Assembly: GCA_001799735.1 (NCBI GenBank)
Contig: MGUA01000027.1
Location: forward strand, 1 to 64,000
Reading direction: 5' to 3'
DNA: 64,000 nt
Source: Elusimicrobia bacterium GWB2_63_22
Lineage (GTDB): Bacteria; Elusimicrobiota; Elusimicrobia; Elusimicrobiales; UBA9959
Part shown: positions 26,988 through 42,255 of the stretch, piece after piece
Numbering within the stretch: position 1 is the first letter of the stretch
Layout of the letters: every line of letters starts with the position of its first letter
Translations under genes and position numbers: made by a program
Notes under the pieces: model-generated
Databases searched by the model: none
Told to the model about the DNA's origin: nothing
What the model saw: only the letters and a program-made list of their open reading frames with translations

Positions 26988-28238
26988 CTAGCGCCCGGCT
27001 TCCCCCTCGCGTTTGGCGGTAAGCGGGAAGGACATTATGAGCCAGGCCCCGGAGAAGACCACGCCCAGCGCGGGGTAGAAGCCGGGCGCTATGGAGCCGG
27101 CGGCTTTCAGCGCGGAAACCCAGAACGCGGTCACGCCCTTGGCGAAGCGGTAGGTGAAGGCGTCCGCCACCTGCTTGGCGCGGTAGCGCGTGTCGTAGGA
27201 GAACGGGATGTAGAGCGTCTCCTTGGACGCCCGGAAGATGGAATAGTCCATGCCCTTGAACAGGAGGAAGGCCGTGGAGGCCAGGCCGAGCGAGGGGTAG
27301 AGGAACAGCAGCAGGCAGGAGACTATATGCACCGCCGGGATGGCGGTGAGGATGCCGCGGCGCGGGATGTAGCGCAGCAGCAGCGGCGTGAGCAGGAACT
27401 GCATGGAGAACGAGAAGATGTTCACGTTCATCCAGAAAGTGCCCATGTAGGCCGTCCGCTCGTCCTTGCCCGGGATGAAGTCCTGCACCAGCTGGGTAAA
27501 GCGGAAGTCCAGCGCGGTGGCCACCACCTGCGCGGAGAAGATGATGAAGGCGATGAACAGCACGGTGCGGTTCTCACGCAGGATGCTCAGGTGCAGGTGG
27601 CCTTTCTTGCCGCCGGCCTCGTCCGCGGCCGGCTTGGGCTCCCCGGCTTTGCCGTAGGCCAGCCAGAACAGCGCGGCGGCCGGCAGGATCATAACGGCCG
27701 CGAAAAGGACAAACAGGTCGGTGCCGAGCCCCATGACATAATGGCCGATCAGCCAGCCGCCGGTGAGGGACCCCAGCGCCCCGAGGCCGGCCACGGGGCC
27801 GTTGAAGACCTTCCCCTCCTCGTCCTTCAGGACGCTGTTGATGAAGGACCAGTACTGTTCGGAGATGATCACCACGTAGGATTCTTTGAAGACGAGCAGG
27901 AAGAAGGCGAACCAGCGGCCGGCTACCCCGAGCAGGGCCCAGGCCAGCGCGAAGAAGGCCGCGCTGCCGAGCATGGAGACGGCCATGGCTTTTTTTGCGC
28001 CGTAAGCCGAGAGCATGCGCCCGTAGCCGTAGATCATGGCGGCCATCATGAACGGCACGCAGGCGATGGCGTAGGGCTTGTACTCGGCCCCGAAGTGCTC
28101 CATGAAGATGGCTTCGGCGGGCGAGCGGATGAATTCGTAGCCGCAGAAAAGGAACATGGCCGACAGGCCGCCCAGGAAGACCGCCACGGCCACGTGCCGG
28201 CCCCGTTCAGTTCTTAACGCCGCGAGAAGTGTGCTCAT
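26988..28238 (-). CDS. NTT/Npt-like nucleotide carrier or related MFS transporter
   Basis: About 12 TM segments; FRASKETLYIPFSYDTRYRAKQVADAFTYRFAKG resembles the KE.LY.P...YKAK..ID motif of the ATP/ADP carrier family. Confidence 0.65.
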   Translation of the reverse strand: MSTLLAALRTERGRHVAVAVFLGGLSAMFLFCGYEFIRSPAEAIFMEHFGAEYKPYAIACVPFMMAAMIYGYGRMLSAYGAKKAMAVSMLGSAAFFALAWALLGVAGRWFAFFLLVFKESYVVIISEQYWSFINSVLKDEEGKVFNGPVAGLGALGSLTGGWLIGHYVMGLGTDLFVLFAAVMILPAAALFWLAYGKAGEPKPAADEAGGKKGHLHLSILRENRTVLFIAFIIFSAQVVATALDFRFTQLVQDFIPGKDERTAYMGTFWMNVNIFSFSMQFLLTPLLLRYIPRRGILTAIPAVHIVSCLLLFLYPSLGLASTAFLLFKGMDYSIFRASKETLYIPFSYDTRYRAKQVADAFTYRFAKGVTAFWVSALKAAGSIAPGFYPALGVVFSGAWLIMSFPLTAKREGEAGR

Positions 28239-28392: not shown

Positions 28393-29595
28393 TCAATACT
28401 TGAACTGGCCGCCTTCGTAGATCGTGACTTTCTTGCCGTTCTTCAGCGTGGCGGTCACTTTTTTATCCTCGGTGTTCACCAGGTCCCAGTGCACGGCCGA
28501 CTTGTTGTAGCCGAGCTTTTCCTTCAGGGCGGGGGTGAGCTTGCGGATGTCCCCGGCGTAGGTATCGCTGTAGGAGGAGCCCACGGCTATGTGGGAGTTG
28601 CCGTACTTGCCGCCGTGGTTCTCGTCGAACAGGGTGTCGGCCATGAACTTGTCTATCTTGGAGAAGCGGCGGTCGGTGAGCGAGTACTCGCCCACCTGAC
28701 AGGCGCCGTGGTCGGTGGCCAGCGTGCCGCGCACGAACTTCTCGCTCTTCTCCGCGGTGATCTTCACCGCGCGGCCGCCCTTGAACTCCAGGCGCACGCC
28801 CTCCACGTAGTTGCCGTCCTTGAACGACGGGAAATTGGCGTAATAGACGCCCTTGGTGCCGCGCCAGTCGGGCGAGGTGAACAGCTCGAAGCTGGGGATA
28901 TTGTGGCCGCTGACGCCTATGAAGTTGCGCTTCTCGCCGAACTTCACCTCCAGGTCCATCGACTTCGACTCGGTGCGGATGGTGTCGATGCCGAGCGTGT
29001 TCAGCCACTTCTTGATGCGGCCGCTGTCCCGCTTGATCTCCCCCCACTTCTTGACCGGGTCCTTCTCGTCGAGGTAGCAGGCCTTGGCCACCTGGCGGGC
29101 GTATTCTTTCAGCGAGAGGCCGGCCTGCTTCGCGAGCTCCTCGGTGGGATAGGTGCACAGCGTCCAGCCGGCCAGGCCCTTCTCCTCGTTGGCCACGCGG
29201 ATGCTGCGCAGGTCGTTCCTGGTCAGCGTCGTGTCCATCAGGCTGGCGGCCGGGGCGTCCTTGAGGTGGGTCAGGGAGGCGGGGGCCCTTATGACCATGT
29301 CGCCGTTTATCGAACCCCAGAACTCCTTGTCCCCGGCGAAGAGGAACCGGCGCTGCTCATGGGTGCTGTCGTTGTGCAGGGCCACTTCCATCATCGGCGT
29401 GGGCAGGAACCTCAGGAAGACGTTGAAGCCGCGTTTTACCAGTTTGGCGTAGAGCACCTCGGCCAGGTCCAGGCCGGGCGCGTCGAAGCGCAGCTGTATG
29501 GTGTCGCCCCTCTTGAAGCCCGGGCGGGCCGTGGTAACGCCCCAGATGAGGGCCTCGGCGTAGTTCTCAAGCTGTTTTTTAGAATAGATGGCCAT
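28393..29595 (-). CDS. Aminopeptidase, M29-like family
   Basis: LCTYPTEELAKQAGLSLKEY, GHNIPSFELFTSPDWRGTKGVYYANFPSF, NSHIAVGSSYSDTYAG. Confidence 0.8.
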   Translation of the reverse strand: MAIYSKKQLENYAEALIWGVTTARPGFKRGDTIQLRFDAPGLDLAEVLYAKLVKRGFNVFLRFLPTPMMEVALHNDSTHEQRRFLFAGDKEFWGSINGDMVIRAPASLTHLKDAPAASLMDTTLTRNDLRSIRVANEEKGLAGWTLCTYPTEELAKQAGLSLKEYARQVAKACYLDEKDPVKKWGEIKRDSGRIKKWLNTLGIDTIRTESKSMDLEVKFGEKRNFIGVSGHNIPSFELFTSPDWRGTKGVYYANFPSFKDGNYVEGVRLEFKGGRAVKITAEKSEKFVRGTLATDHGACQVGEYSLTDRRFSKIDKFMADTLFDENHGGKYGNSHIAVGSSYSDTYAGDIRKLTPALKEKLGYNKSAVHWDLVNTEDKKVTATLKNGKKVTIYEGGQFKY

Positions 29596-29680
29596 GTTTT
29601 CCTCCGTGAAAGTCTTAAAGCCGCTGGCTAAATTATATGTAATTTTTTGTACCATATGCGGAGAAGTACAAGGAGGGCAT

Positions 29681-30835
29681 ATGGGCGGCTATCCCGACAG
29701 AAAGAAAATTTTAAAAAGCATCCTGGCCGAACTGCACGCCGGGCTGCCGCTGGAGCAGGCCAAGGAGAAGTTCGAGGCCGAAATAGGGCCGGTAACCTCC
29801 AAAGAGATCTTCGAACTGGAGCAGTCCCTGCTGGAGGACGGCGTGCCGCCGGAGGAGATAAAGAAATTCTGCAACGTGCACGCGCTGCTGTTCGACGGCT
29901 CGCTGGAGAAGAGCATGGAGGACCCGGCCGACCCCAACCACCCGGTGGCGCTGTTCAAGGCCGAGAACGCCGAGATCAAGCGCCGCGTGGAGTCCGCCAA
30001 GGCCCTGCTGCCGGCCCTCAGGGACGGCAAAGGCGCCGACTGGGTGCGAAACATCATAGAGGAGCTGCGCGCCGTAGTGAAACATTACGAGCGCAAGGAG
30101 CAGCTGCTGTTCCCTTACCTTGAAAAGGCGGGCTTCTACGGGCCGTCCAAGGTAATGTGGGGCAAACACGACGAGGTGCGCGGGCTCCTGAAGCGGGCGC
30201 TCGCCGCCGGCGCAGAGGACTTCCCCGCCGCGGCGCAAGCGCTGCTGGAGGAGGTGGACGGCATGATCTTCAAGGAGGAGAGCATCCTCTTCCCGGCCGC
30301 CCTCGAAAAGCTCAAGCCCGCGGACTGGGCCGAGATCTTCCGCGAAAGCGCGCAGGCCGGCTACATCTTCATAGAGCCGCCGGCCGCCGCGGCGGAGGCC
30401 CTGGACATAGCGCAGAACGCCACCTCCCTGGCGGGGGCGCTGGTCACCCTGCCCAGCGGCAACCTGTCGCTGACGGACCTGACCGCGCTGCTCAACGCGC
30501 TGCCGGTGGACCTGACCTTCGTGGACGCGGACGACACCGTGCGCTACTTCTCGGAGGGCGCCGACCGGGTCTTCCTGCGGACCCGCTCCATCATCGGCCG
30601 CAAGGTGCAGAACTGCCACCCGCCGGCCAGCCTGGGCGCGGTAGAAAAGATCCTCGCCGGCTTTAAGGCCGGCACCAAGAGCTCCGAGGAGTTCTGGATA
30701 AACATGAAAGGCCGCGTGATCCACATCCGCTACTTCGCGCTGCGCGACCCGGCGGGCCAGTACCTGGGCTCGCTGGAAGTCACCCAGGACATAACCGGCA
30801 TACAGCAGATCAAAGGCGAAAAAAGGCTGGCTTAA
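29681..30835 (+). CDS. DUF438 / hemerythrin / PAS domain protein
   Basis: AAGGAGGG RBS before ATG 29681; DUF438-like N-terminus, VVKHYERKEQLLFPYLEKAGFYGPSKVMWGKHDEVR hemerythrin motif, PAS C-terminus. Confidence 0.88.
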   Translation: MGGYPDRKKILKSILAELHAGLPLEQAKEKFEAEIGPVTSKEIFELEQSLLEDGVPPEEIKKFCNVHALLFDGSLEKSMEDPADPNHPVALFKAENAEIKRRVESAKALLPALRDGKGADWVRNIIEELRAVVKHYERKEQLLFPYLEKAGFYGPSKVMWGKHDEVRGLLKRALAAGAEDFPAAAQALLEEVDGMIFKEESILFPAALEKLKPADWAEIFRESAQAGYIFIEPPAAAAEALDIAQNATSLAGALVTLPSGNLSLTDLTALLNALPVDLTFVDADDTVRYFSEGADRVFLRTRSIIGRKVQNCHPPASLGAVEKILAGFKAGTKSSEEFWINMKGRVIHIRYFALRDPAGQYLGSLEVTQDITGIQQIKGEKRLA

Positions 30836-31067: not shown

Positions 31068-31165
31068 CCCCGGCCGAAGGGCCCAGGCCGGCCTGGGAAC
31101 ATTGCCGCCAGAAAGGGGGCCCTTGGCACCTGCTATAGGGGAGCCGTATGCGCTATCCTATAGAC

Positions 31166-32257
31166 ATGATAAAGACCCTTTTCCTGACCGCCGCCTTAGC
31201 CGTGCCCGCCGCAGCCCAGACCGCAGATTTCTCAGCCTTGCAGAACTTCGACGCTTCGCAGCTCCAGGAGATACAGCTCCCCGCCGACAAGAGCTGGGGC
31301 GTGAACTACATACTCAAAGGCATTGTCTCCGTCAGCGAGGCCGGCCCCTTGCTCAACACCGTGGACGGCCGCCTCTTCAGGCTGGACCTGAGCGCCAGGA
31401 AAGCCGCCAAATTCGACGGCAAGACCGTGCTGGTAGAAGCCCAGGCCAAACAGGCCGACGACCTCGCCCTGCTGAAGGTAGTGGAAATTTCGGAGTACGA
31501 GCCCAAGGCCGGCGAAGTGGTGCCCGCCCCGTACCAGCCCCGCCGCCGCACCGCCACCCTGCTGGAGAACAAGGACGGCCGCATGGTGATGGGCAACGTC
31601 CGCATGTCCAGTTCCGAGGTCCCCGCCGTAAATTCCTACGAGTGGACCACCATGACGATCAAGCCGGAGCTGATCAAGAACATCTACCTCATCAAGAAGC
31701 CTTTCAAGCCGGAAGTCGTAGCCGCGCATTCCTTCTTCGTCTTCACCTTCGAGAAGGGAGGCCTTAAGGACGCGCAGGGCAATGAACCCATGGCGCTGGC
31801 CCTGAGCATAGAGGGCAAGACCCGCGTGGGGCAGAGCTTCTCCCCGCTTACCGGCCTCAAGAACAGCTTCGGCATCAACTGGTCCCTCTCTACCTGGGAA
31901 GAATACGCCGCCCGCACCATCCACGAAGAGAAGGGCCACCTGGTGCCCTACCCGGTGCTGCTCTCCCACGCCGAAAAGGCCGCCCTGCTGCGCGAGTCCA
32001 TGACGCAGGCCGCCGTGGACCGCGAAGGCGAGTTCTACCACACTGTCAAGAACAACTGCACCAATAACCTGCTCATCCTGCTAAACCGCGTGCTGCCGCA
32101 GGACAAACAGATAAAGCTGTGGACCATCCCCTACATGGTCTACAATGTAAAGGCCACCATGCCGCTGATGGTGATCAGCAACCTGCAGAAGAAGGGCATA
32201 CTCGGCGCCGAGTTCACCGACATCAACGCCGCCACCCTCAACACCAGGCTGCCCTGA
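31166..32257 (+). CDS. Secreted protein with DUF4105-like C-terminal region
   Basis: Signal peptide MIKTLFLTAALAVPAAAQ; YHTVKNNCTNNLLILLNRVLP motif. Confidence 0.6.
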   Translation: MIKTLFLTAALAVPAAAQTADFSALQNFDASQLQEIQLPADKSWGVNYILKGIVSVSEAGPLLNTVDGRLFRLDLSARKAAKFDGKTVLVEAQAKQADDLALLKVVEISEYEPKAGEVVPAPYQPRRRTATLLENKDGRMVMGNVRMSSSEVPAVNSYEWTTMTIKPELIKNIYLIKKPFKPEVVAAHSFFVFTFEKGGLKDAQGNEPMALALSIEGKTRVGQSFSPLTGLKNSFGINWSLSTWEEYAARTIHEEKGHLVPYPVLLSHAEKAALLRESMTQAAVDREGEFYHTVKNNCTNNLLILLNRVLPQDKQIKLWTIPYMVYNVKATMPLMVISNLQKKGILGAEFTDINAATLNTRLP

Positions 32258-32267
32258 CCGCCACCCC

Positions 32268-32310
32268 AAAAAAAGAAAAGGCCCGGGAAACCGGGCCTTT
32301 TTCTTTTTCA
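32268..32310 (+). terminator. Rho-independent terminator
   Basis: AAAAGGCCCGGGAAACCGGGCCTTTTTCTTTTTC. Confidence 0.85.
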
Positions 32311-32320
32311 GGGCGCGTCC

Positions 32321-34963
32321 TTACAGCTTGACGCGCTTGTCTATGACCTTGCGGATCTTGCCGGTGCGCAGCACGCGCTCTATGGAGCCGGGCTTGAGCA
32401 CCTCTATCTCCGGCTTGTCCAGCCACTTCATGCGCACGCTCTCGTGCAGGTCCTCGCAATGCTTCTCTATGGCGCGCCACAGCAGGTCGCCCAGCTCGCC
32501 CGCGCGGGCCAGCGCCGCCGGGTCCTTAACCTCCACGCGGAGTTTCAGTGTGTCGCGGTGGCCTTTCTTGTCTATCACCGCCTGGAAGTTGAAAGTCAGG
32601 TCCGGCACCCGGCCCAGCGCCTCCTGCAGATCGTTGACGAACAGGTGAGCCCCGCCCACGTGGATGCGGTCGTCGCAGCGGCCCAGGATCTCGAACAGCT
32701 TTTCTTTGCGGCCGCAGGCGCAGGGCTTCAGCACCCAGCGGCCCAGGTCGCCCACGCGGTAGCGGATGATGGGCATGTGTTTCTTGGAAAGCCCGGTCAC
32801 CACCAGCTCCCCCACCTCGCCGGGACTCACCGGCTTAAGGGTATCCTGGTCCACGAACTCTATGAACTGGCTGTGGGCGAACAGGTGGTGCTCCCCCTTC
32901 ACGCAGGCCGGGCACTGGAAGCCGATCACGCCGGCGTCGGCCGTGGCGTAGCCGCCGGAGCGCACGTCCACCCCGGGAAAAACGGACTTGAAGAACTTCA
33001 CCATCTCGTCGCCCACGTACTCGCCGCCGTAGAAGATCTTCTTGATAGCCAGCCGGTGTTTGCCCTTATTGGCTTTAACGTACTCCGCCAGCTTCACCAG
33101 GAAGGACGGCAGGCCTATCACGGCCGTCACCTGGAAATCCTCCAGGTAACCCGCGATGTTTTCCAGCGGCAGGTTGCTGCCCACCGGCACCGAGATGGCC
33201 TTGGTGTAGGCTATCGCTTTCTCTACTGAAAGCCAGCTGGACCAGAGGTTGCCGGCGATGAAGAGGTTGGCGATGGTGTCCTTCTCGTTAAGGCCGGCAG
33301 CCTCGTACGTGAAGGCCAGCATCCGGCAGGTATGGTCGTACTCGTGCTGGTCGTAAAAAACGTATTTCGGCTGGCCGGTGGAGCCGCCGCTGGCGAAGAA
33401 GATGCCGCGCTGCACCTTGGAGGTCAGCAGGTCGGAGCTGTCGGGCGGGGTGTTCTCCAGCACGTGGTGTTTCTCCAGGAACGGCACCTTCTGGAAATCC
33501 TCCAGCGACACAATGCGAGGCACGCCTTTAAAATGCCGGCCGTAGAAAGGGCTGCGCTTGCGGGCGTGGTCCACCAGTTCGCTCAGGCGGTCCAGTTGGG
33601 AGGGCTTCTCTTCTATCGGCACCCAGTTCACCAGCGACATCATCGGGTAGATGCCGTCGTGCGGCGAGCCGTTGGCTTCCTCGAGCATCTTGCCGAGCTT
33701 CACCACCCGGGCTATCCCGACGGGGCCCAGCGTTTCCAGCACTTTCTTGCGCTCTATGGAGCCGCCCACGCCCACGGTCTGGATATAGCCGCGCATCGGC
33801 ATCAGCAGGTCCCGGACGGCCTCTATGCTTTCCACGGTCTTGACGTAGAGCACGCGGTTGAGGGGCGAGACCCGGTACACCGGGTCCTTCTCATAGATCA
33901 CCGTCCAATCGGTTTTCGGCGCGGAACTTTCGTAAGCGGCGGCGCCCAGCGCCATGTCCACGCGGGCCAGCTGACGGGCCCTGTTTATCTCCACCTTTTC
34001 GTCGGGGGAAAGCTTGCCCTGCGGCAGCTCGGCCGCCAGGTCGGAGAAATGTTTCTTTGAATATTTGAGGAAATCCGAGGCCAGCGCCTTATGCTTTTTG
34101 GCCGGCGCGATAATATAGAGAGTATGCAGCGACGAGCAGGCCGCCTGGTCCCACAGCGAGGCGTCCACGGCCGCGCGGCGGGCCACGTTGTCCATGCCCT
34201 CGTACTCTATGCAGCTGTCGAACACCACGCCCACGCTGGTCTTGGGGCCGAAACCCTCCACGCGCACGTCGATAGGCGCGATCCTGCGGTAGCTCTGCAC
34301 CGCGTCGTAGCCGCCCCAGACGAACACGGCGTTGACGTGCTTCAGCGCGGCCTCCTCCAACCCCTGGCTGCCGCCCTTCCAGCTGACGATGGCGGCGGAC
34401 TTGGCCAGCACGCCCTTCTCGTCCACTTCGTTGAGGGCGTCCATGAAAAGGTTAATAAAGTTGGACCCGCCCGAGGCGAGCTTCACTATATTTACGTTCT
34501 TGGTCAGGAAGCCGATCACCATGGAGTCCAGGATGCCCAGGAACACGTTGCCGGCACCTACGTGCAGCACCACGCCCTTGGGCAGCGCGCGCACCAGGCC
34601 GGAGTAGCCGCGGCGCTCTACCGGGGCCTCCAGCGCGTAGGGGATGAACAGCTCCATGTTCATGCGCTTGATAAGCGTCTGTTTTTCAAGGATCTCGGGG
34701 ATGACGTCCAGGCTCTTCTCTATGACCGGCCCGGAGAAAGTGATGTGTTCCTTAAGGTGGGCGAGCGCGGCCTTGCGGTATTTCCCGCCCTTGTCGAACA
34801 GCCGGCCGGCCCTGGCCAGCGTGTCGGCGATGTAGTCGCGCGATACCCCGCGCAGCAGCCCCCTGGCCGCCTGGGCCTGCAGGCCGAGCCGTTCCAGTTC
34901 GGCGGGCGTCCAGGCCGTCTTATCCAGGGCTTTCCCGAAAAGGTAGGTGTTGTGTATCTTCAT
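32321..34963 (-). CDS. LuxC acyl-CoA reductase fused to PaaK/F390-synthetase-like adenylate-forming domain
   Basis: 880 aa from ATG 34963. N-half LHVGAGNVFLGILDSMVIGFLTKNVNIVKLASG...SWKGG...GFGPKTSVGVVFD (LuxC-like); C-half FFASGGSTGQPKYVFYD...RYRVGDLGRW...ILGRCDDRIHVGGAHLFVNDLQEAL (PaaK-like). Confidence 0.88.
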   Translation of the reverse strand: MKIHNTYLFGKALDKTAWTPAELERLGLQAQAARGLLRGVSRDYIADTLARAGRLFDKGGKYRKAALAHLKEHITFSGPVIEKSLDVIPEILEKQTLIKRMNMELFIPYALEAPVERRGYSGLVRALPKGVVLHVGAGNVFLGILDSMVIGFLTKNVNIVKLASGGSNFINLFMDALNEVDEKGVLAKSAAIVSWKGGSQGLEEAALKHVNAVFVWGGYDAVQSYRRIAPIDVRVEGFGPKTSVGVVFDSCIEYEGMDNVARRAAVDASLWDQAACSSLHTLYIIAPAKKHKALASDFLKYSKKHFSDLAAELPQGKLSPDEKVEINRARQLARVDMALGAAAYESSAPKTDWTVIYEKDPVYRVSPLNRVLYVKTVESIEAVRDLLMPMRGYIQTVGVGGSIERKKVLETLGPVGIARVVKLGKMLEEANGSPHDGIYPMMSLVNWVPIEEKPSQLDRLSELVDHARKRSPFYGRHFKGVPRIVSLEDFQKVPFLEKHHVLENTPPDSSDLLTSKVQRGIFFASGGSTGQPKYVFYDQHEYDHTCRMLAFTYEAAGLNEKDTIANLFIAGNLWSSWLSVEKAIAYTKAISVPVGSNLPLENIAGYLEDFQVTAVIGLPSFLVKLAEYVKANKGKHRLAIKKIFYGGEYVGDEMVKFFKSVFPGVDVRSGGYATADAGVIGFQCPACVKGEHHLFAHSQFIEFVDQDTLKPVSPGEVGELVVTGLSKKHMPIIRYRVGDLGRWVLKPCACGRKEKLFEILGRCDDRIHVGGAHLFVNDLQEALGRVPDLTFNFQAVIDKKGHRDTLKLRVEVKDPAALARAGELGDLLWRAIEKHCEDLHESVRMKWLDKPEIEVLKPGSIERVLRTGKIRKVIDKRVKL

Positions 34964-36129
34964 AGCATCGTAGCGGCGGAGATGGCGCAGCCCTTTAATT
35001 TCTTCACGCCGGCGCGGCCGTGTATCTCCAGCAGCGGGCCGGGCAGGCCGCAGGCGCACTTCGGCCGCACCAGCCCGAAATCCGAGGACAGCACCGACAG
35101 CGACGGGTAGCTGGTGAGGTAAGGGGTGATGAACTGCAGCAGGCCGACCTTGTTGAAGCCCAGCGGCTCCAGCGTGCCGGGGTCGCGGGCGATGACGCGG
35201 CCGTAGTTGGGGATGTGGAAATTGCCCAGGCGGCAGTCCACGTAGGGCACGCCGTGCTCCACCATGCCGAACAGGTCGCGCACGTTGGCCACCGGGACAC
35301 CGAGGTTGTCGGCGAGGATCTTGCGGTAGACCTTCTTGTCCACGGCCTCGTCGGCCAGCGTTTTCCACCCGCCGCCGGTGACCACGCTGCTACCTGGATT
35401 CAGTTTAGGATAGCGGCCGTGCCGTTTTTTAAATTCTTCGGTCAGTTTCAGAGCGAAGGCCGGAAAACCGACCAGCCGCACCAGCGAGCCGGCGGCTTCG
35501 AAGCGCGCCATGGCGTCCACGGCGCCGTCGAGGTCGAAATAAAAATCTTTCTTTTCTTTGCTCCAGCGGAAGGTGTAGAAGATCTCGCCTTTTTTAGTGA
35601 AGCCGCTGAGCAGCTTGTCGGTCCAAGCGGTGCCGAGGTCTTTGGCGACTTCCGGATCGTAGGTAAAGCAGATATAGTCGTGCGCCCGCGCCAGGTCCGT
35701 CAGGCCCAGGCCCTCGAAGACCCGCCAGGCCATGCGCCGCACGCGCATCAGCGAGCCTTTATCCAGCTGCATGCGGGAGCGCTGCCCCGAAGTGCCGCTG
35801 GACTTCAGCTCCAGCACTATCTTCGAATACGGCAGCGTGGTAAGGTCGCGCTCCTTCAGCGCGGCCACAAAAACATACGGGATCTTAGGCACATCGTTCT
35901 CGGTCTTCACCGAGGCGGGGCAAAAGCCTTCGGCCTTGTAGAGCGCCTTAAGCACGCTTGCGTTCCCGCCCTGGAAGTCCAGCGCGGCGCGCATGGCGGC
36001 CAGGAAGGCGCGCGAGGTTTTCGGAGAATACTCGAAAGCCGGCGTTTCGAACAGCGCGTCGAGGGCGCTTCGGCTCTTGAGCGGCTGGTGGAAGGGCGGC
36101 AGCTTGTCCTCTACGGAAAGATCGGCCAT
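34960..36129 (-). CDS. LuxE acyl-protein synthetase family protein
   Basis: MADLSVEDKLPPFHQPLKSRS...LELKSSGTSGQRSRMQLD...DLFGMVEHGVPYVDCRLGNFHIPNYGRVIARDPGTLEPL; 4-bp ATGA overlap with the LuxC-PaaK start. Confidence 0.88.
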   Translation of the reverse strand: MADLSVEDKLPPFHQPLKSRSALDALFETPAFEYSPKTSRAFLAAMRAALDFQGGNASVLKALYKAEGFCPASVKTENDVPKIPYVFVAALKERDLTTLPYSKIVLELKSSGTSGQRSRMQLDKGSLMRVRRMAWRVFEGLGLTDLARAHDYICFTYDPEVAKDLGTAWTDKLLSGFTKKGEIFYTFRWSKEKKDFYFDLDGAVDAMARFEAAGSLVRLVGFPAFALKLTEEFKKRHGRYPKLNPGSSVVTGGGWKTLADEAVDKKVYRKILADNLGVPVANVRDLFGMVEHGVPYVDCRLGNFHIPNYGRVIARDPGTLEPLGFNKVGLLQFITPYLTSYPSLSVLSSDFGLVRPKCACGLPGPLLEIHGRAGVKKLKGCAISAATML

Positions 36130-36136
36130 GTAGTTC

Positions 36137-37333
36137 CTATTTCTGCTCGGTCTCGAATACCAGTTCGATGTAGTTCTCACGCCAGAGCTTCAGGTATTCC
36201 TTCAGGAAGTTCCGGTACAGCGAGATGATCTTGACGTTGCGGAAGTCCAGGATGTCGAAGGTCCTGGAGAAGACCACGCAGTCGTAACGCTTGTCCTCCA
36301 TGCGCTTGGCGCACGGGAAATAGGCGCTGGGGATAAAGCGCGCGTCCAGCGCGTCGCGCTGGATGGCCGGGGAGTAGGCGTCTATTATCACCTCCACGTA
36401 GGCCATGTCCATCTGGCTGACCTTCTGCGCTATGCTTTCAAGCACCACGGCGAAGCTTTTTTCATTGGTGACGCCGCCCACGACCACGCTGTACTTGTCC
36501 TTCTGGTTGAAGGTCAGGTACACCTCGGTGCCCTGGTCCGGCGTGATCAGGATCAGGTTGGGCTCATGGAAGGGCATGAAGATGCGCTCGAAGAAGCTGT
36601 TGCTCTTCGTCTTCTTCCAGCGGTTCTTGATGAACTCCGGAGCGGTGATCATCTCGAAGTTGAGCAGCGGGATCTTGCTCTTGTGCTCGCTGTACTCCCC
36701 CTTCACGTCCTTTACCTGCGCCGCTTCCAGCTTGATCTGCTTGCGGACTATCTCGTAGAACGGCGCGATCTCCGGGATCACGACCGGCGTCTGCCGGCGG
36801 CGGCCCAGGGCCTTCTCCGTAAAATAGCCGGTCAGGCAGTGCGTCTCGTTATACTGCAGCCGGTTGGAATTGGGGAAGATGCCCAGCTTTATGAAGCCCA
36901 GGCTTTCGGTCAGCTTCTGCGGGGCGTAATTGGCGGTACGGGTGGTGGCGTAGACTATGTCGACGAGGTCCTTGGTCTCGGTAATGTCGTCGAGCACCAG
37001 TTTCATCATCGTGAAAGCCAGGTCGTGCTTGCGGAACTCCTGGCTGACCACGGCGCCGAAGGCCTTGGAGTTGCGGTAGAACAGGTCCAGGGCGTACACC
37101 AGGCTGCCTATCACGCGGCCCTCGCATTCGGCCACCAGCCAGTAGTACTCGTTGTCCTCTATGGCGCGGCGCATCTTCTCCTTGTCCGTCACTATCGGAA
37201 TGGAGTAGTTGCCGCCGTAAACCTCGGCGTAGAGCATCTGGATGCGGCGCATGTCCGGGGTCTTGGCCAGCCGGATGATGATATCCGGCTTGCCTTCGGT
37301 TTTAATTATCTTTTCTATTTTTTTGAGCGCCAT
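36137..37333 (-). CDS. GNAT-family acetyltransferase-like protein
   Basis: N-terminal GNAT-like fold: RRAIEDNEYYWLVAECEGRVIGSLVYALDLFYRNSKAFGAVVSQEFRKHDLAFTMM; 7-nt gap to LuxE. Confidence 0.78.
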   Translation of the reverse strand: MALKKIEKIIKTEGKPDIIIRLAKTPDMRRIQMLYAEVYGGNYSIPIVTDKEKMRRAIEDNEYYWLVAECEGRVIGSLVYALDLFYRNSKAFGAVVSQEFRKHDLAFTMMKLVLDDITETKDLVDIVYATTRTANYAPQKLTESLGFIKLGIFPNSNRLQYNETHCLTGYFTEKALGRRRQTPVVIPEIAPFYEIVRKQIKLEAAQVKDVKGEYSEHKSKIPLLNFEMITAPEFIKNRWKKTKSNSFFERIFMPFHEPNLILITPDQGTEVYLTFNQKDKYSVVVGGVTNEKSFAVVLESIAQKVSQMDMAYVEVIIDAYSPAIQRDALDARFIPSAYFPCAKRMEDKRYDCVVFSRTFDILDFRNVKIISLYRNFLKEYLKLWRENYIELVFETEQK

Positions 37334-37399
37334 ATAATATAATATAGTAAAAATCGGCCTCTTTTGATAATGACCGATATCAGCAATCCGGCGAAAACG

Positions 37400-38176
37400 A
37401 TGAAAACAAACAAACTGCTACTGCTCCTGGCCGCCCTCCCCGCCTTCTGGGGCTGCGCCTCGTTCAACCACGGCGACATCCTGGTGGAGCGCTCGGCCGC
37501 CAAGGCCATGCTGGAGGACGCCTCCATCAGGCCCTTCTCCGAGGTAAAGCTTTCCTGGAAGAACTTCCCCTACCGCTCGGCCAGCGACCTGATAGGCGAG
37601 GGGTCCGTCTCCCGCCCCAAGAAGCCGAAGACCGTCCCGGCGCCCCCGGAGGACTCGGCGGACCTAACCCGCCAGGCCAGGGAGGTCTTCGCGAAGGCCG
37701 GCCTTTACGACAGCCAGAAAGGCTATGGCACGCTCACGCTGGAGATGACCACCTTCGGCCGCTGGACCTACAGGGAGCTGCTGCGCTCCTACCTGGTAGA
37801 CACCAGCTTCATTTTCATCATCCCCTCCGCCCTGCGGGTCAATTATTTCCTGACCGCGGATTTCCAGACCTCTACCGGCACGGCGCGCGTAGAGACCGAG
37901 GCCACCAACAAGACCACCTTCCACCTGCTGCTGGCCCCGCTCTACCCTTTCACCGCCCCTGGCGGCAGGGAGAATAAGCTGCTCAAACAGATGCTGTGGC
38001 GTTCGGCCACCGACGTTTACACAAAGCTGAAGGCCGCGGGGCAGGCCGTACCCGGCGCCGTTCCGGCCGCGCCTGTTGTCCCCGGGGCGGCCGCGCCGGC
38101 GCAGGAAGAGGACCCCGTCCTGGTGCCCCCCGACGAGCCGGCCCGCGACTGGAGAGAAGAGCCGCAGGACGACTGA
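37400..38176 (+). CDS. Hypothetical lipoprotein
   Basis: MKTNKLLLLLAALPAFWGCASF lipobox. Confidence 0.6.
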   Translation: MKTNKLLLLLAALPAFWGCASFNHGDILVERSAAKAMLEDASIRPFSEVKLSWKNFPYRSASDLIGEGSVSRPKKPKTVPAPPEDSADLTRQAREVFAKAGLYDSQKGYGTLTLEMTTFGRWTYRELLRSYLVDTSFIFIIPSALRVNYFLTADFQTSTGTARVETEATNKTTFHLLLAPLYPFTAPGGRENKLLKQMLWRSATDVYTKLKAAGQAVPGAVPAAPVVPGAAAPAQEEDPVLVPPDEPARDWREEPQDD

Positions 38177-38787: not shown

Positions 38788-41700
38788 TTATTTCAGAAGC
38801 TTGTCCCCGGTGGACTTCACCGAGGGGTCTATCTTGGCCGCGCGCTCGGCGAAGGCCTTAACGTCGTCCTTCTTTTCGAGCTTGTCGGAAACCCGCGCCA
38901 GGTTAAGCCAGATCTCCGCGTCGTACGGGTCGGCCTTGGCCGCGTCGAAATAATACTTCTTCGCCTCGTCGTAGCGCTTCTGGCCGTAAGACAGGTTGCC
39001 CACGTTATTGAGCGCGGCGGCGTTGAACGGTTCTTTGGCCAGCACGGCCTTGAAATACTTCTGGGCCTCGTCGGTCTCTCCGTTCTGGGCGGTCAGCATG
39101 CCGAGGTTGATGTTGGCGTCGACATCGTCGGGGTTGGCCGCCAGCACTTTGCCGAAGTAGTCCTTGAAGTAGGCGTAGCGGGCCTTCTGCAGGCCGGCGG
39201 CGGCCTCTTTTACGCGGGCGACGAATTTGGCCTTGTCCGGGTAGGAATCCATGTCGCCCTCGGGCAGCGTCACGGGCTCGAATTCAGCCCAGGCGTCGCG
39301 CACCTCTATCACCCTCACGTCTTTTTCGTTCTGGCGGTAGAAGGAGGCGGCGTGCTTGACGGCGTCGTAGAAGTCCTTGCCCACCATCGTCACTTCCAGA
39401 CCCACCCAGAAGGTGTTCTTGTATTTTATCAGGTACTCCTCGGGGATGCCGACCTCGCGGGCGTCGGCGGAGCCGGTGTCGAACATCAGCGAGATATGCG
39501 CCGGGTAGTCCAGCAGCGCTGTCTTCGGGCCGGAGGCCTCCAGCAGCGTGGCGAACAGCGCGGTCAGATCGTCGCAGTCGCCGCTCTTGAGCTTGAGCGT
39601 GCTGCGCGGGAACTGCACCGTGTCCAGCACCATTTCCGAAGAGGATTTCAGGGAGGCGTAGGGGCTGACCGGGTCGGCCAGGTAGCTCAGCCCCTGCTCG
39701 CCCAGCGCTTCCCAGATCATCAGCGAGGTCAGAGTGTTCTCGTTGAGGAAAGGAGCGGCCTCCTCCAGTTTGCCCTTCTCGTTGAGCGCGAAGCGGCTGA
39801 AGCCGAACACCGGGGTGTCCTTGGGAGTGATGAAGTTGGCCAGGCGCGCCGGCTTGTCCCAGACGATGGCGTTCTTGGAGAGCACCTTTACCGGCTTATT
39901 GAGGGTGAAGGTCTTCTCCTCGCCGTCCTGGTAATAGGTCAGCGTCAGCTGGCACTGTATCGGGGTGTCCTCGGTGATGTTGAGGATGCGGTTGTTGAGC
40001 GTGGCGGACAGCGGCACGTCCACCTGAGAGCCGGCCTTCACCTCGGGCACCACGGTGTCGCTCGGGAAGTCCATGAAGTCCTTGAAGAAGAACGAGAGCT
40101 TCACGTTGGAGAAGTCGGTCTCCGTGTTGTTCTTCACGGCTATCTGGCCCACCGGGTTCTTCTGGTAATACTTGTAGTTGGCCGAGAAGATGTAGTTAAG
40201 CGCGGGCGCCACGATCTCCATGGGCGCCACGTTCTTGCTCCCGCCGGCGGCGGAGGCCTCGGCGGCCGGGGCTTCCGGCGGCTTGTAGTAGAAGCCGGCG
40301 GGCAGCGACAGGCCGCCCTGGGCCCCGCTCACGGACAGGCCCGCCACGTAATAGTAGTAGGTGGCCTCTTCGGTAAGCTTATCCTCGAAGGTCTTGCCCT
40401 TGGGCGCGCCGAGCTCTTTGAGTTCGCCGTCGGAACCCTTGGTGCGGTAGACCTTGAAGCCGCCGGTCCAGGCGTTGGACTTGGCGTTCCAGGAAAGGGC
40501 GGCGCCCTTCTCGGCCGCGGCGGCCTTTATGCCGAACGGCTCCTCGGGAAGGTAGCTGATATCGAAACCCAGCAGGCGGGAATTCTCCATGTCGGAGATA
40601 TAGACCTTGTCGTTGCGGAAAGCCAGGTACTGGGGAGCCCAAAGCTCGCGCTCGCCGCGGCCCTTGGCGAAGAAACTGGAAGTAAAGTTGCCGGCGGCGT
40701 CGAAGATCTTTATGTTGAAAGAGCCTTTGTCCAGGATGTAGAAGAAGCCCTTGTCGTCATAGGCGAGGCTGGCGGGGTCCTGCAAGCGCCCGGAATCGTC
40801 CCAGAGGCGCAGGAACTTGCCCATGGAATCCATGACTATAACCTTCTTGAGGACGGAGTCGAGGATATACACGTTCTTCGCCTCGTCGCAGTGCACGGCC
40901 ACCGGGTTGGCAAGGGTCACGTTGCCCATTTCCGGGCCGGCGGCGAAAAGGAACATGCCGTCGGCGCTGAAGGCCTTTATCTTCTTGTTCTTAGTGTCGG
41001 CCACGTAGATATTGCCCTTGGCGTTGACCGCCACGGAGGAAGGCTGGCGGAACTGGCCGTCGCCGGAGCCGCTCTCGCCGAACATATTGTTATAGGTGCC
41101 GTCCGGGTTGAAGATCTGCACCCGGTCGTTGCCGGTGTCGGCCACGTAGATCAGCCCCTTGGCGTCCACGAAGATGCCGCGCGGGGAACGGACCTGCCCC
41201 TGCAGCTTGCCTTCGCGGACCAGGGTCTTCTTGGTGCCCTTGTCGAACAGCGCGAGTTCTTTGGCCTCGGGCAGCCACGCTATCACTTTTCCGTCCGCAG
41301 TGACGGTAAAAAGGTCGGCCTTGGCGGCCTGTTTCTCGGAGGGACCGGTGATCATGAAGCGGTCCAGCAGGCGCGCCTTCGGCAGCTCCGGGCCGGTCTC
41401 GCCGCTCTCGATATTTATCGCTACGACCTTTTTATTATCGTCGTCGCTGAGGTAGACCAGGCCGGCGTCGTCCATGGCGATGTCGCGGAGGTTCTTGAAC
41501 TCCATCTTACCCTTGCCCTTGGTACCGAAAGTGGCGACAGCCTCGCCGAGTGCGGAATATTCGCGGACCTTGCCTTCCTTGGGGTTGATCAGGTAGATCT
41601 GTCCGCGGGCGTCGGCGACGGCCCCATTGTTGGCGGCTTGTATCTCCTTGAGCAGCTTGCCGGTCCTGTCGTATTTATGAAGCAGGGCCTTGTCGGGGTC

Positions 41701-42255
41701 CGAAACCAGCAGGTCGCCGGAGCGGCTAGCGAAGATGCTGGCGGGGCGGAGCTTGGTAACGCCGTCCTGGCGCACGGTAGGGAAACCGTAGAGGTAAATG
41801 CCGTCGGAGTTAAAGACCTCGACCCTGGAGCCGCCGGTGTTGGAAACGTAGACCCTGCCGTCGGGTCCGTAAGAAATGCCTTTCGGGCCGTCGATCTGGC
41901 CGGGGGCGGACCCGTCGCTGGAGAAGGTCCAGAGCAGCTTGCCCTCGGGGTCGAAGACGACGATACGGGAGTTGCCGGTGTCGGCCACGTAGAGCCGTCC
42001 TCCGCCGAAGCTTATGGCCGAGGGAGCCTTAAGGCTCCCCTCTATCTTCCTCAGCTGTTTTCCCGCGGCGTCGAAGACGAAGATCGCGTTGGTCTTCATG
42101 TCGGCGACGAAGACCTTGTCTTTGGACAGGGCTATCGCCGACGGCTTCTGCATGGCGGGGCTGGATATCAGCGCCTTGAACTCTATTTTTTCGTACGCGC
42201 CGGCCACGGAAGCCAGCAGGGTAAGCACAGCCGAATAAATTATAGCCCGCTTCAT
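38788..42255 (-). CDS. Secreted NHL-repeat / FN3-like / transglutaminase-like / TPR protein
   Basis: Many RVYVSNTGGSRVEVFNSDG-type NHL repeats; KLKSGDCDDLTALFATLLEASG...YPAHISLMFD...FWVGLEVT; C-terminal TPRs. Confidence 0.88.
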   Translation of the reverse strand: MKRAIIYSAVLTLLASVAGAYEKIEFKALISSPAMQKPSAIALSKDKVFVADMKTNAIFVFDAAGKQLRKIEGSLKAPSAISFGGGRLYVADTGNSRIVVFDPEGKLLWTFSSDGSAPGQIDGPKGISYGPDGRVYVSNTGGSRVEVFNSDGIYLYGFPTVRQDGVTKLRPASIFASRSGDLLVSDPDKALLHKYDRTGKLLKEIQAANNGAVADARGQIYLINPKEGKVREYSALGEAVATFGTKGKGKMEFKNLRDIAMDDAGLVYLSDDDNKKVVAINIESGETGPELPKARLLDRFMITGPSEKQAAKADLFTVTADGKVIAWLPEAKELALFDKGTKKTLVREGKLQGQVRSPRGIFVDAKGLIYVADTGNDRVQIFNPDGTYNNMFGESGSGDGQFRQPSSVAVNAKGNIYVADTKNKKIKAFSADGMFLFAAGPEMGNVTLANPVAVHCDEAKNVYILDSVLKKVIVMDSMGKFLRLWDDSGRLQDPASLAYDDKGFFYILDKGSFNIKIFDAAGNFTSSFFAKGRGERELWAPQYLAFRNDKVYISDMENSRLLGFDISYLPEEPFGIKAAAAEKGAALSWNAKSNAWTGGFKVYRTKGSDGELKELGAPKGKTFEDKLTEEATYYYYVAGLSVSGAQGGLSLPAGFYYKPPEAPAAEASAAGGSKNVAPMEIVAPALNYIFSANYKYYQKNPVGQIAVKNNTETDFSNVKLSFFFKDFMDFPSDTVVPEVKAGSQVDVPLSATLNNRILNITEDTPIQCQLTLTYYQDGEEKTFTLNKPVKVLSKNAIVWDKPARLANFITPKDTPVFGFSRFALNEKGKLEEAAPFLNENTLTSLMIWEALGEQGLSYLADPVSPYASLKSSSEMVLDTVQFPRSTLKLKSGDCDDLTALFATLLEASGPKTALLDYPAHISLMFDTGSADAREVGIPEEYLIKYKNTFWVGLEVTMVGKDFYDAVKHAASFYRQNEKDVRVIEVRDAWAEFEPVTLPEGDMDSYPDKAKFVARVKEAAAGLQKARYAYFKDYFGKVLAANPDDVDANINLGMLTAQNGETDEAQKYFKAVLAKEPFNAAALNNVGNLSYGQKRYDEAKKYYFDAAKADPYDAEIWLNLARVSDKLEKKDDVKAFAERAAKIDPSVKSTGDKLLK

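Follow-up and report, generated by a model that had tools for sequence, protein, structure and literature searches.

The DNA analyzed here, which we refer to as the window, is a stretch of 64,000 nucleotides from Elusimicrobia bacterium GWB2_63_22 (GCA_001799735.1, contig MGUA01000027.1, positions 1-64,000 of the forward strand); the source genome is 3.06 Mb and 95% complete. Our analysis centers on a set of three minus-strand genes at 32321-37333 that encode, in order, a tandem-GNAT protein, a LuxE-family acyl-protein synthetase, and a protein in which a LuxC acyl reductase is fused to a PaaK-like adenylate-forming domain (Table 1). A preliminary description, made from the sequence alone, had reported three tightly packed genes with a 7-nt gap between GNAT and LuxE, a 4-nt ATGA overlap between LuxE and LuxC-PaaK, and an 880-amino acid (aa) product of the last gene, all of which proved exact. 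Since a promoter-like site and a strong bidirectional terminator flank the trio, it looks like a single transcription unit; the terminator separates it from a convergent gene (31148-32257, +).

Table 1. Coordinates of the operon, its domains, key codons, and flanking signals in the window.
Feature	Position	Strand	Basis
Tandem-GNAT protein, 398 aa	36137..37333	-	PF00583 1.7e-6; AlphaFold2 model
First GNAT domain, aa 18-171	36821..37282	-	Foldseek; loop alignment
Second, degenerate GNAT-like domain, aa 227-358; conserved PFxxPN, YxE, P..D	36260..36655	-	Model secondary structure; conservation, 26 homologues
LuxE-family acyl-protein synthetase, 389 aa	34960..36129	-	PF04443 3.8e-36; PDB 7xc6 LuxE 2.1e-18
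LuxE acyl-accepting Cys381 codon (KGC motif)	34987..34989	-	34/34 homologues; aligns with KGC cysteine of 7xc6 LuxE
LuxC-PaaK fusion, 880 aa	32321..34963	-	Pfam, NCBIfam, and PDB matches
LuxC acyl reductase domain, aa 45-447	33623..34831	-	PF05893 4.6e-66; PDB 7xc6 LuxC 3.7e-20
LuxC catalytic Cys276 codon (WDQAACSS)	34136..34138	-	Aligns with DQQACFS of 7xc6 LuxC; at least 90% conserved among relatives
PaaK-like adenylate-forming domain, aa 454-878	32330..33604	-	NCBIfam PaaK 1.5e-44 (aa 454-877); PDB 4r1l PaaK 2.5e-37
PaaK-domain C-terminal catalytic Lys869 codon (RTGKIRK)	32357..32359	-	Conserved in all full-length fusions aligned, Streptomyces and Salmonella included
Promoter-like site TTATCA-18-TATATT, just 5' of the GNAT start	37341..37370	-	Consensus scan only, 9/12 positions
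Bidirectional intrinsic terminator	32275..32302	.	11-12 pair GC-rich stem, T tails on both strands

Domains and catalytic residues of the three proteins

Pfam searches returned the LuxE, LuxC, and PaaK-like domains that had been proposed for the locus, the last as AMP-binding (PF00501, 4.3e-13) together with AMP-binding_C_2 (4.9e-9). The PaaK-like domain also matches the NCBIfam model BagE/FevW (1.8e-14). LuxE and the two domains of the fusion fall far below the NCBIfam equivalog cut-offs, with LuxE scoring 89.5 bits against a cut-off of 550, LuxC 118 against 750, and PaaK 151 against 646. Residues whose catalytic roles are known from the LuxC/LuxE and ANL families are retained: LuxE has its SSGTSG loop and Cys381, LuxC has Cys276, and in the PaaK domain the GGSTGxPK and GD motifs and the C-terminal TGK lysine are all present. 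Because these residues are intact, LuxE, LuxC, and the PaaK domain should be catalytically competent. An AlphaFold model of the LuxC-PaaK fusion, with a predicted local distance difference test score (pLDDT) of 68, was too weak for interpretation.

The preliminary description had called the locus a lux-type operon without luxAB. The lack of luciferase extends to the source genome as a whole, which contains one LuxC and one LuxE and gave no match to the luciferase family PF00296 in a search that was positive in 10 of 14 control genomes. Searches for LuxD (PF02273) and wax synthase also gave no match, but neither did their controls. Given the missing luciferase and the sub-equivalog LuxC and LuxE scores, the operon is, by sequence, not a lux operon, and the lux-type label was given up in view of these scores and of the gene neighborhoods of its relatives.

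The first gene had been described as encoding a GNAT-like acetyltransferase. Its AlphaFold2 model (pLDDT 84.5) reveals two successive GNAT-type sheets, which refines the assignment to a tandem GNAT. In Foldseek searches, the first domain best matched the amino-acid or amine N-acetyltransferases SpeG, RimJ/RimL, ArsN, and PAT (phosphinothricin); a histidine acetyltransferase was also among the matches and aligned across the entire model. The acyl-CoA loop of the first domain reads R101-K-H-D104-L-A106. Within the GNAT family of the window the loop consensus is R-x-x-D/N-x-A, with Asp or Asn replacing the usual Gly in most members, while the canonical R/Q-x-x-G-x-G/A loop is present in a few distant relatives and the loop is lost in type II relatives. 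Because the loop is atypical and lost in some relatives, we infer rather than assign acetyltransferase activity; the GNAT fold stands and the label "acetyltransferase" is uncertain.

Conservation and genomic settings

The preliminary description had pointed to GNAT-LuxE-LuxC/PaaK synteny as a feature to look for, and it is conserved far beyond chance. In a survey of 295 Elusimicrobiota genomes, the LuxC-PaaK fusion was found in 60 and the tandem GNAT in 63, with both present in 59; the exceptions among the 64 genomes with either were one fusion without the tandem GNAT and four tandem GNATs without the fusion (Fisher p about 5e-56, without a correction for kinship). The two genes lie no more than 4 kb apart in 53 of the 59 genomes, and almost every related locus of sufficient length retains the gene order. 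The closest DNA relatives are metagenome-assembled genomes mostly titled Elusimicrobia or Elusimicrobiota, several of them from groundwater. Within the family of the window, whose sampled free-living members almost all retain the operon, 41 of 44 sampled genomes had a match to the fusion; most of the small genomes of the sister family had none.

Tree distances among the three proteins correlate strongly (r 0.96-0.99, 50 loci). Among close relatives, the trio also correlates to a substantial degree with an NHL gene that flanks it (0.66-0.70), which means that common descent accounts for part of this signal. The trio is under purifying selection, with ratios of nonsynonymous to synonymous substitution (dN/dS) of about 0.10-0.20 as compared to about 0.2-0.5 for most neighbors; the MFS gene at 26988 has a dN/dS as low as the trio.

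Several neighbors in the window can be described. A predicted lipoprotein without a Pfam match (37364-38176, +) is divergent to the operon and keeps its position in most relatives, and it evolves much faster than the trio. The NHL gene (38788-42255, -) encodes a 1155-aa beta-propeller protein with C-terminal TPRs and, by eye, a transglutaminase-like stretch, and is conserved beside the operon. A DUF438-hemerythrin-PAS protein (29588-30835, +) is a likely oxygen or redox sensor. An M29 aminopeptidase gene lies near the operon in many relatives, and directly downstream of LuxC-PaaK in one of them (locus L089). We did not count it as part of the operon because, in the window, two opposite-strand genes intervene and it is less conserved.

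Outside this family, the module occurs in larger settings. In Elusimicrobiota, diverged paralogue clusters begin with a Cys-protease-like secreted protein and a stand-alone PaaK; these are followed by a GNAT-like protein that has an additional N-terminal domain, then LuxE, LuxC-PaaK, an MFS exporter, and the tandem GNAT. A plasmid of Streptomyces NBC_00158 carries PaaK, MFS, tandem GNAT, LuxE, and LuxC-PaaK genes with an AraC regulator nearby, and its tandem GNAT shares 27% identity over 94% with that of the window. The Salmonella plasmid CP054717.1 carries LuxE, LuxC-PaaK, PaaK, and a GNAT of another type within 5.76 kb, with no exporter adjoining; nothing similar was found in the E. coli genomes searched. 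In a further bacterial group, copies of the fusion occur in about 5 of 395 genomes, in extended clusters. Based on these copies, the module occurs scattered across several phyla and is nearly fixed in one Elusimicrobiota family.

These relatives also yielded a number of separate observations. The Salmonella cassette (locus L070, 1-19923) sits on a conjugative plasmid among transposase, recombinase, and toxin-antitoxin genes and was complete on only one other plasmid in the searched collection. The secreted protein that heads the extended Elusimicrobiota clusters (L074, 944-2020; L076, 14298-15431; L077, 5132-6196; L078, 5243-6262) has weak similarity to a Cys-type glutaminase fold. The extra N-terminal domain of the GNAT-like protein scores as HATPase_c_2 in homologues from another bacterial group, and in L113 (10679-14784), L115 (815-2257), and L116 (713-2668) a fusion of an RsbW-like HATPase_c_2 domain with GNAT lies next to LuxE/LuxC clusters. 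The L113 and L116 clusters also contain a Cache-HAMP-SpoIIE phosphatase, linking signaling-type domains to the pathway. On a Streptomyces europaeiscabiei plasmid (NZ_CP109155.1; L094, 3986-12444), a DUF692 (MNIO) gene immediately precedes LuxE and LuxC, with a divergent YcaO gene close by, which makes a ribosomal-peptide pathway ending in a C-terminal aldehyde possible at that locus.

A predicted route to a peptide aldehyde

We give about an even chance to the interpretation that the operon is a minimal, one-ligase pathway, independent of nonribosomal peptide synthetases (NRPS), to an N-capped (N-acyl) amino-acid or dipeptide aldehyde, and not to fatty-aldehyde lux chemistry or light. The earlier suggestion that the genes serve a dedicated pathway whose product is an aldehyde or an N-acylated compound is supported. 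We infer amino-acid substrates, amide bond formation, the order of steps, and the product as follows. The fused PaaK domain would adenylate a probably N-acylated amino acid and join it to a second building block at the amine of the latter, which creates one amide bond. LuxE would then adenylate the carboxyl end of this product and hold it as a thioester on Cys381, from which the acyl group would move to Cys276 of LuxC, where reduction with NADPH would yield the aldehyde. Capping of the amino group is most likely the task of the tandem GNAT.

The relatives have discrete PaaK ligases, GNATs, and an MFS exporter in their neighborhood, which points toward chemistry on amino acids or peptides, and the likeness of the first GNAT domain to ArsN, phosphinothricin, and SpeG acetyltransferases supports this. 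The combination of an AMP-dependent ligase and an acyl reductase, with no peptidyl carrier protein (PCP) or NRPS reductase domain found by Pfam search in the operon proteins, is also that of a leupeptin-type pathway. The second PaaK ligase and the exporter of the larger relatives are as expected for a longer, secreted product. With one ligase and no adjacent exporter in the window, a shorter product is predicted, which may remain in or near the cell. As a search of the source genome with LuxC-PaaK found only the query itself and no second PaaK, the simplest product would be the aldehyde of an N-acyl dipeptide or of an N-acyl amino acid, perhaps with a role in protease regulation or as the precursor of a pyrazinone. 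In the extended Elusimicrobiota clusters, the glutaminase-fold-like secreted protein could be a target or guard for the peptide aldehyde.

Several points weigh against this interpretation. PaaK enzymes usually form acyl-CoA and not amides. The acyl-CoA loop of the GNAT is unusual and lost in part of the family. The single ligase is fused to LuxC, unlike the stand-alone ligases for two amide bonds of the leupeptin route, and no transporter gene adjoins the operon in the window, though the extended Elusimicrobiota and Streptomyces clusters have an exporter. An accessory natural-product cluster would not be expected to be so nearly universal in one family (41/44) or to evolve so slowly. The Klebsiella leupA/leupB primer sites found no match in the Salmonella locus, and the leup genes are known here by description, such that the likeness to leupeptin is one of function, a lead and not membership.

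The main rival, which we consider unlikely, is a supply of fatty aldehyde or alcohol: LuxE and LuxC would reduce a long-chain acyl group and PaaK would activate the acid, feeding membrane or storage lipids such as ether lipid or wax, or an N-acyl lipid made by the GNAT. Characterized LuxC and LuxE act on tetradecanoyl groups, the 7xc6 enzymes are the closest solved relatives, and presence in nearly the whole family fits a role in the envelope. Set against this, the window's LuxE and LuxC score far under the fatty-acid equivalog cut-offs, no lipid-synthesis, acyl carrier protein (ACP), or acyltransferase gene adjoins the operon, and what surrounds the module in distant relatives is a set of ligases, GNATs, and exporters. 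That the operon supplies an activated or reduced acyl building block to decorate a surface glycan, flagellin, or lipoprotein appears quite improbable. LuxE and LuxC are present in Aeromonas flagellin glycosylation islands (PMC7874193), where such a role is envisaged, and the predicted lipoprotein is divergent to the operon in most relatives, but no glycosyltransferase, sugar, or ACP gene adjoins the operon in the window and the trio evolves far more slowly than the lipoprotein. Least probable of all is a catabolic or detoxifying carboxylic-acid reductase system for an imported acid or peptide. In its favor, LuxE-LuxC pairs of Azospirillum and Priestia accompany SDR reductases together with ABC importers, and those of Pantoea an SDR and hydrolases; these pairs, however, have no PaaK fusion or tandem GNAT, and no SDR or importer adjoins the operon in the window. 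The Priestia (L102, 5697-11533) and Azospirillum (L104, 5696-11549) loci form a different conserved set of LuxE, LuxC, ABC importer, and SDR/3-oxoacyl reductase, which suggests reduction of an imported acid there.

Returning to the peptide aldehyde, a broader proposal is tentative, and we hold it to be less likely than not: tandem-GNAT/LuxE/LuxC-PaaK may be the smallest non-NRPS peptide-aldehyde line, conserved in free-living Elusimicrobiota, that makes an N-capped dipeptide aldehyde or a derived pyrazinone for endogenous protease control or signaling, with larger versions across several phyla. Annotation usually treats LuxE and LuxC as genes that supply fatty aldehyde for light; the present cassette suggests that many bacteria use them as the reductive release module of a discrete-ligase small-molecule pathway, which NRPS-centered genome mining may miss. 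If peptide aldehydes are indeed made, this phylum, little known and mostly uncultured, would have a cysteine/serine-protease inhibitor or a pyrazinone signal as a conserved trait.

Comparison with known systems

With the LuxE and LuxC of bioluminescence (PDB 7xc6), the proteins share their families, the conserved KGC and DQxxC cysteines, and the expected LuxE-to-LuxC thioester relay. They differ in the absence of luciferase, in scores far under equivalog, in the fusion of LuxC to PaaK, and in the tandem GNAT partner. The fused ligase has the fold, A3 motif, GD motif, and C-terminal Lys of PaaK-like ligases (phenylacetate-CoA ligase and the BagE/FevW synthetases), but scores well under the equivalog cut-offs and is fused behind LuxC; judged by these characters, it is not a true PaaK. 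Among NRPS-type peptide aldehydes (antipain, livipeptin), the livipeptin system of Streptomyces lividans resembles the operon in its predicted acyl-capped peptide aldehyde made with an N-acyltransferase; it relies on an NRPS-like adenylation-PCP-reductase (A-PCP-R) protein and a tRNA-dependent transferase (PMC10548850), whereas the operon has neither.

The leupABCD pathway to the protease inhibitor leupeptin in Xenorhabdus, Photorhabdus, and Klebsiella, as described in PMC11212599, PMC8283571, and PMC11480411, offers a parallel in its compact operon and N-acetyl-capped product. In the account given there, separate AMP-dependent ligases form the amide bonds and a reductase forms the aldehyde (PMC11212599, citing Li et al. 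2020), and the genes span about 5.8 kb with an adjacent transporter (PMC8283571), close in length to the four-gene Salmonella set. By analogy, the operon most probably works like the leupeptin route. We do not class it as leupeptin because it has neither stand-alone ligases for two bonds nor an adjacent transporter; it is instead a conserved chromosomal set, in a distant phylum, with one ligase fused to the reductase. The Streptomyces NBC_00158 and Salmonella CP054717 clusters share LuxE next to the LuxC-PaaK fusion plus a GNAT, which in Streptomyces is the same tandem GNAT, and they differ from the window in an added stand-alone PaaK, accompanied in Streptomyces by an MFS exporter and in Salmonella by the other GNAT type.

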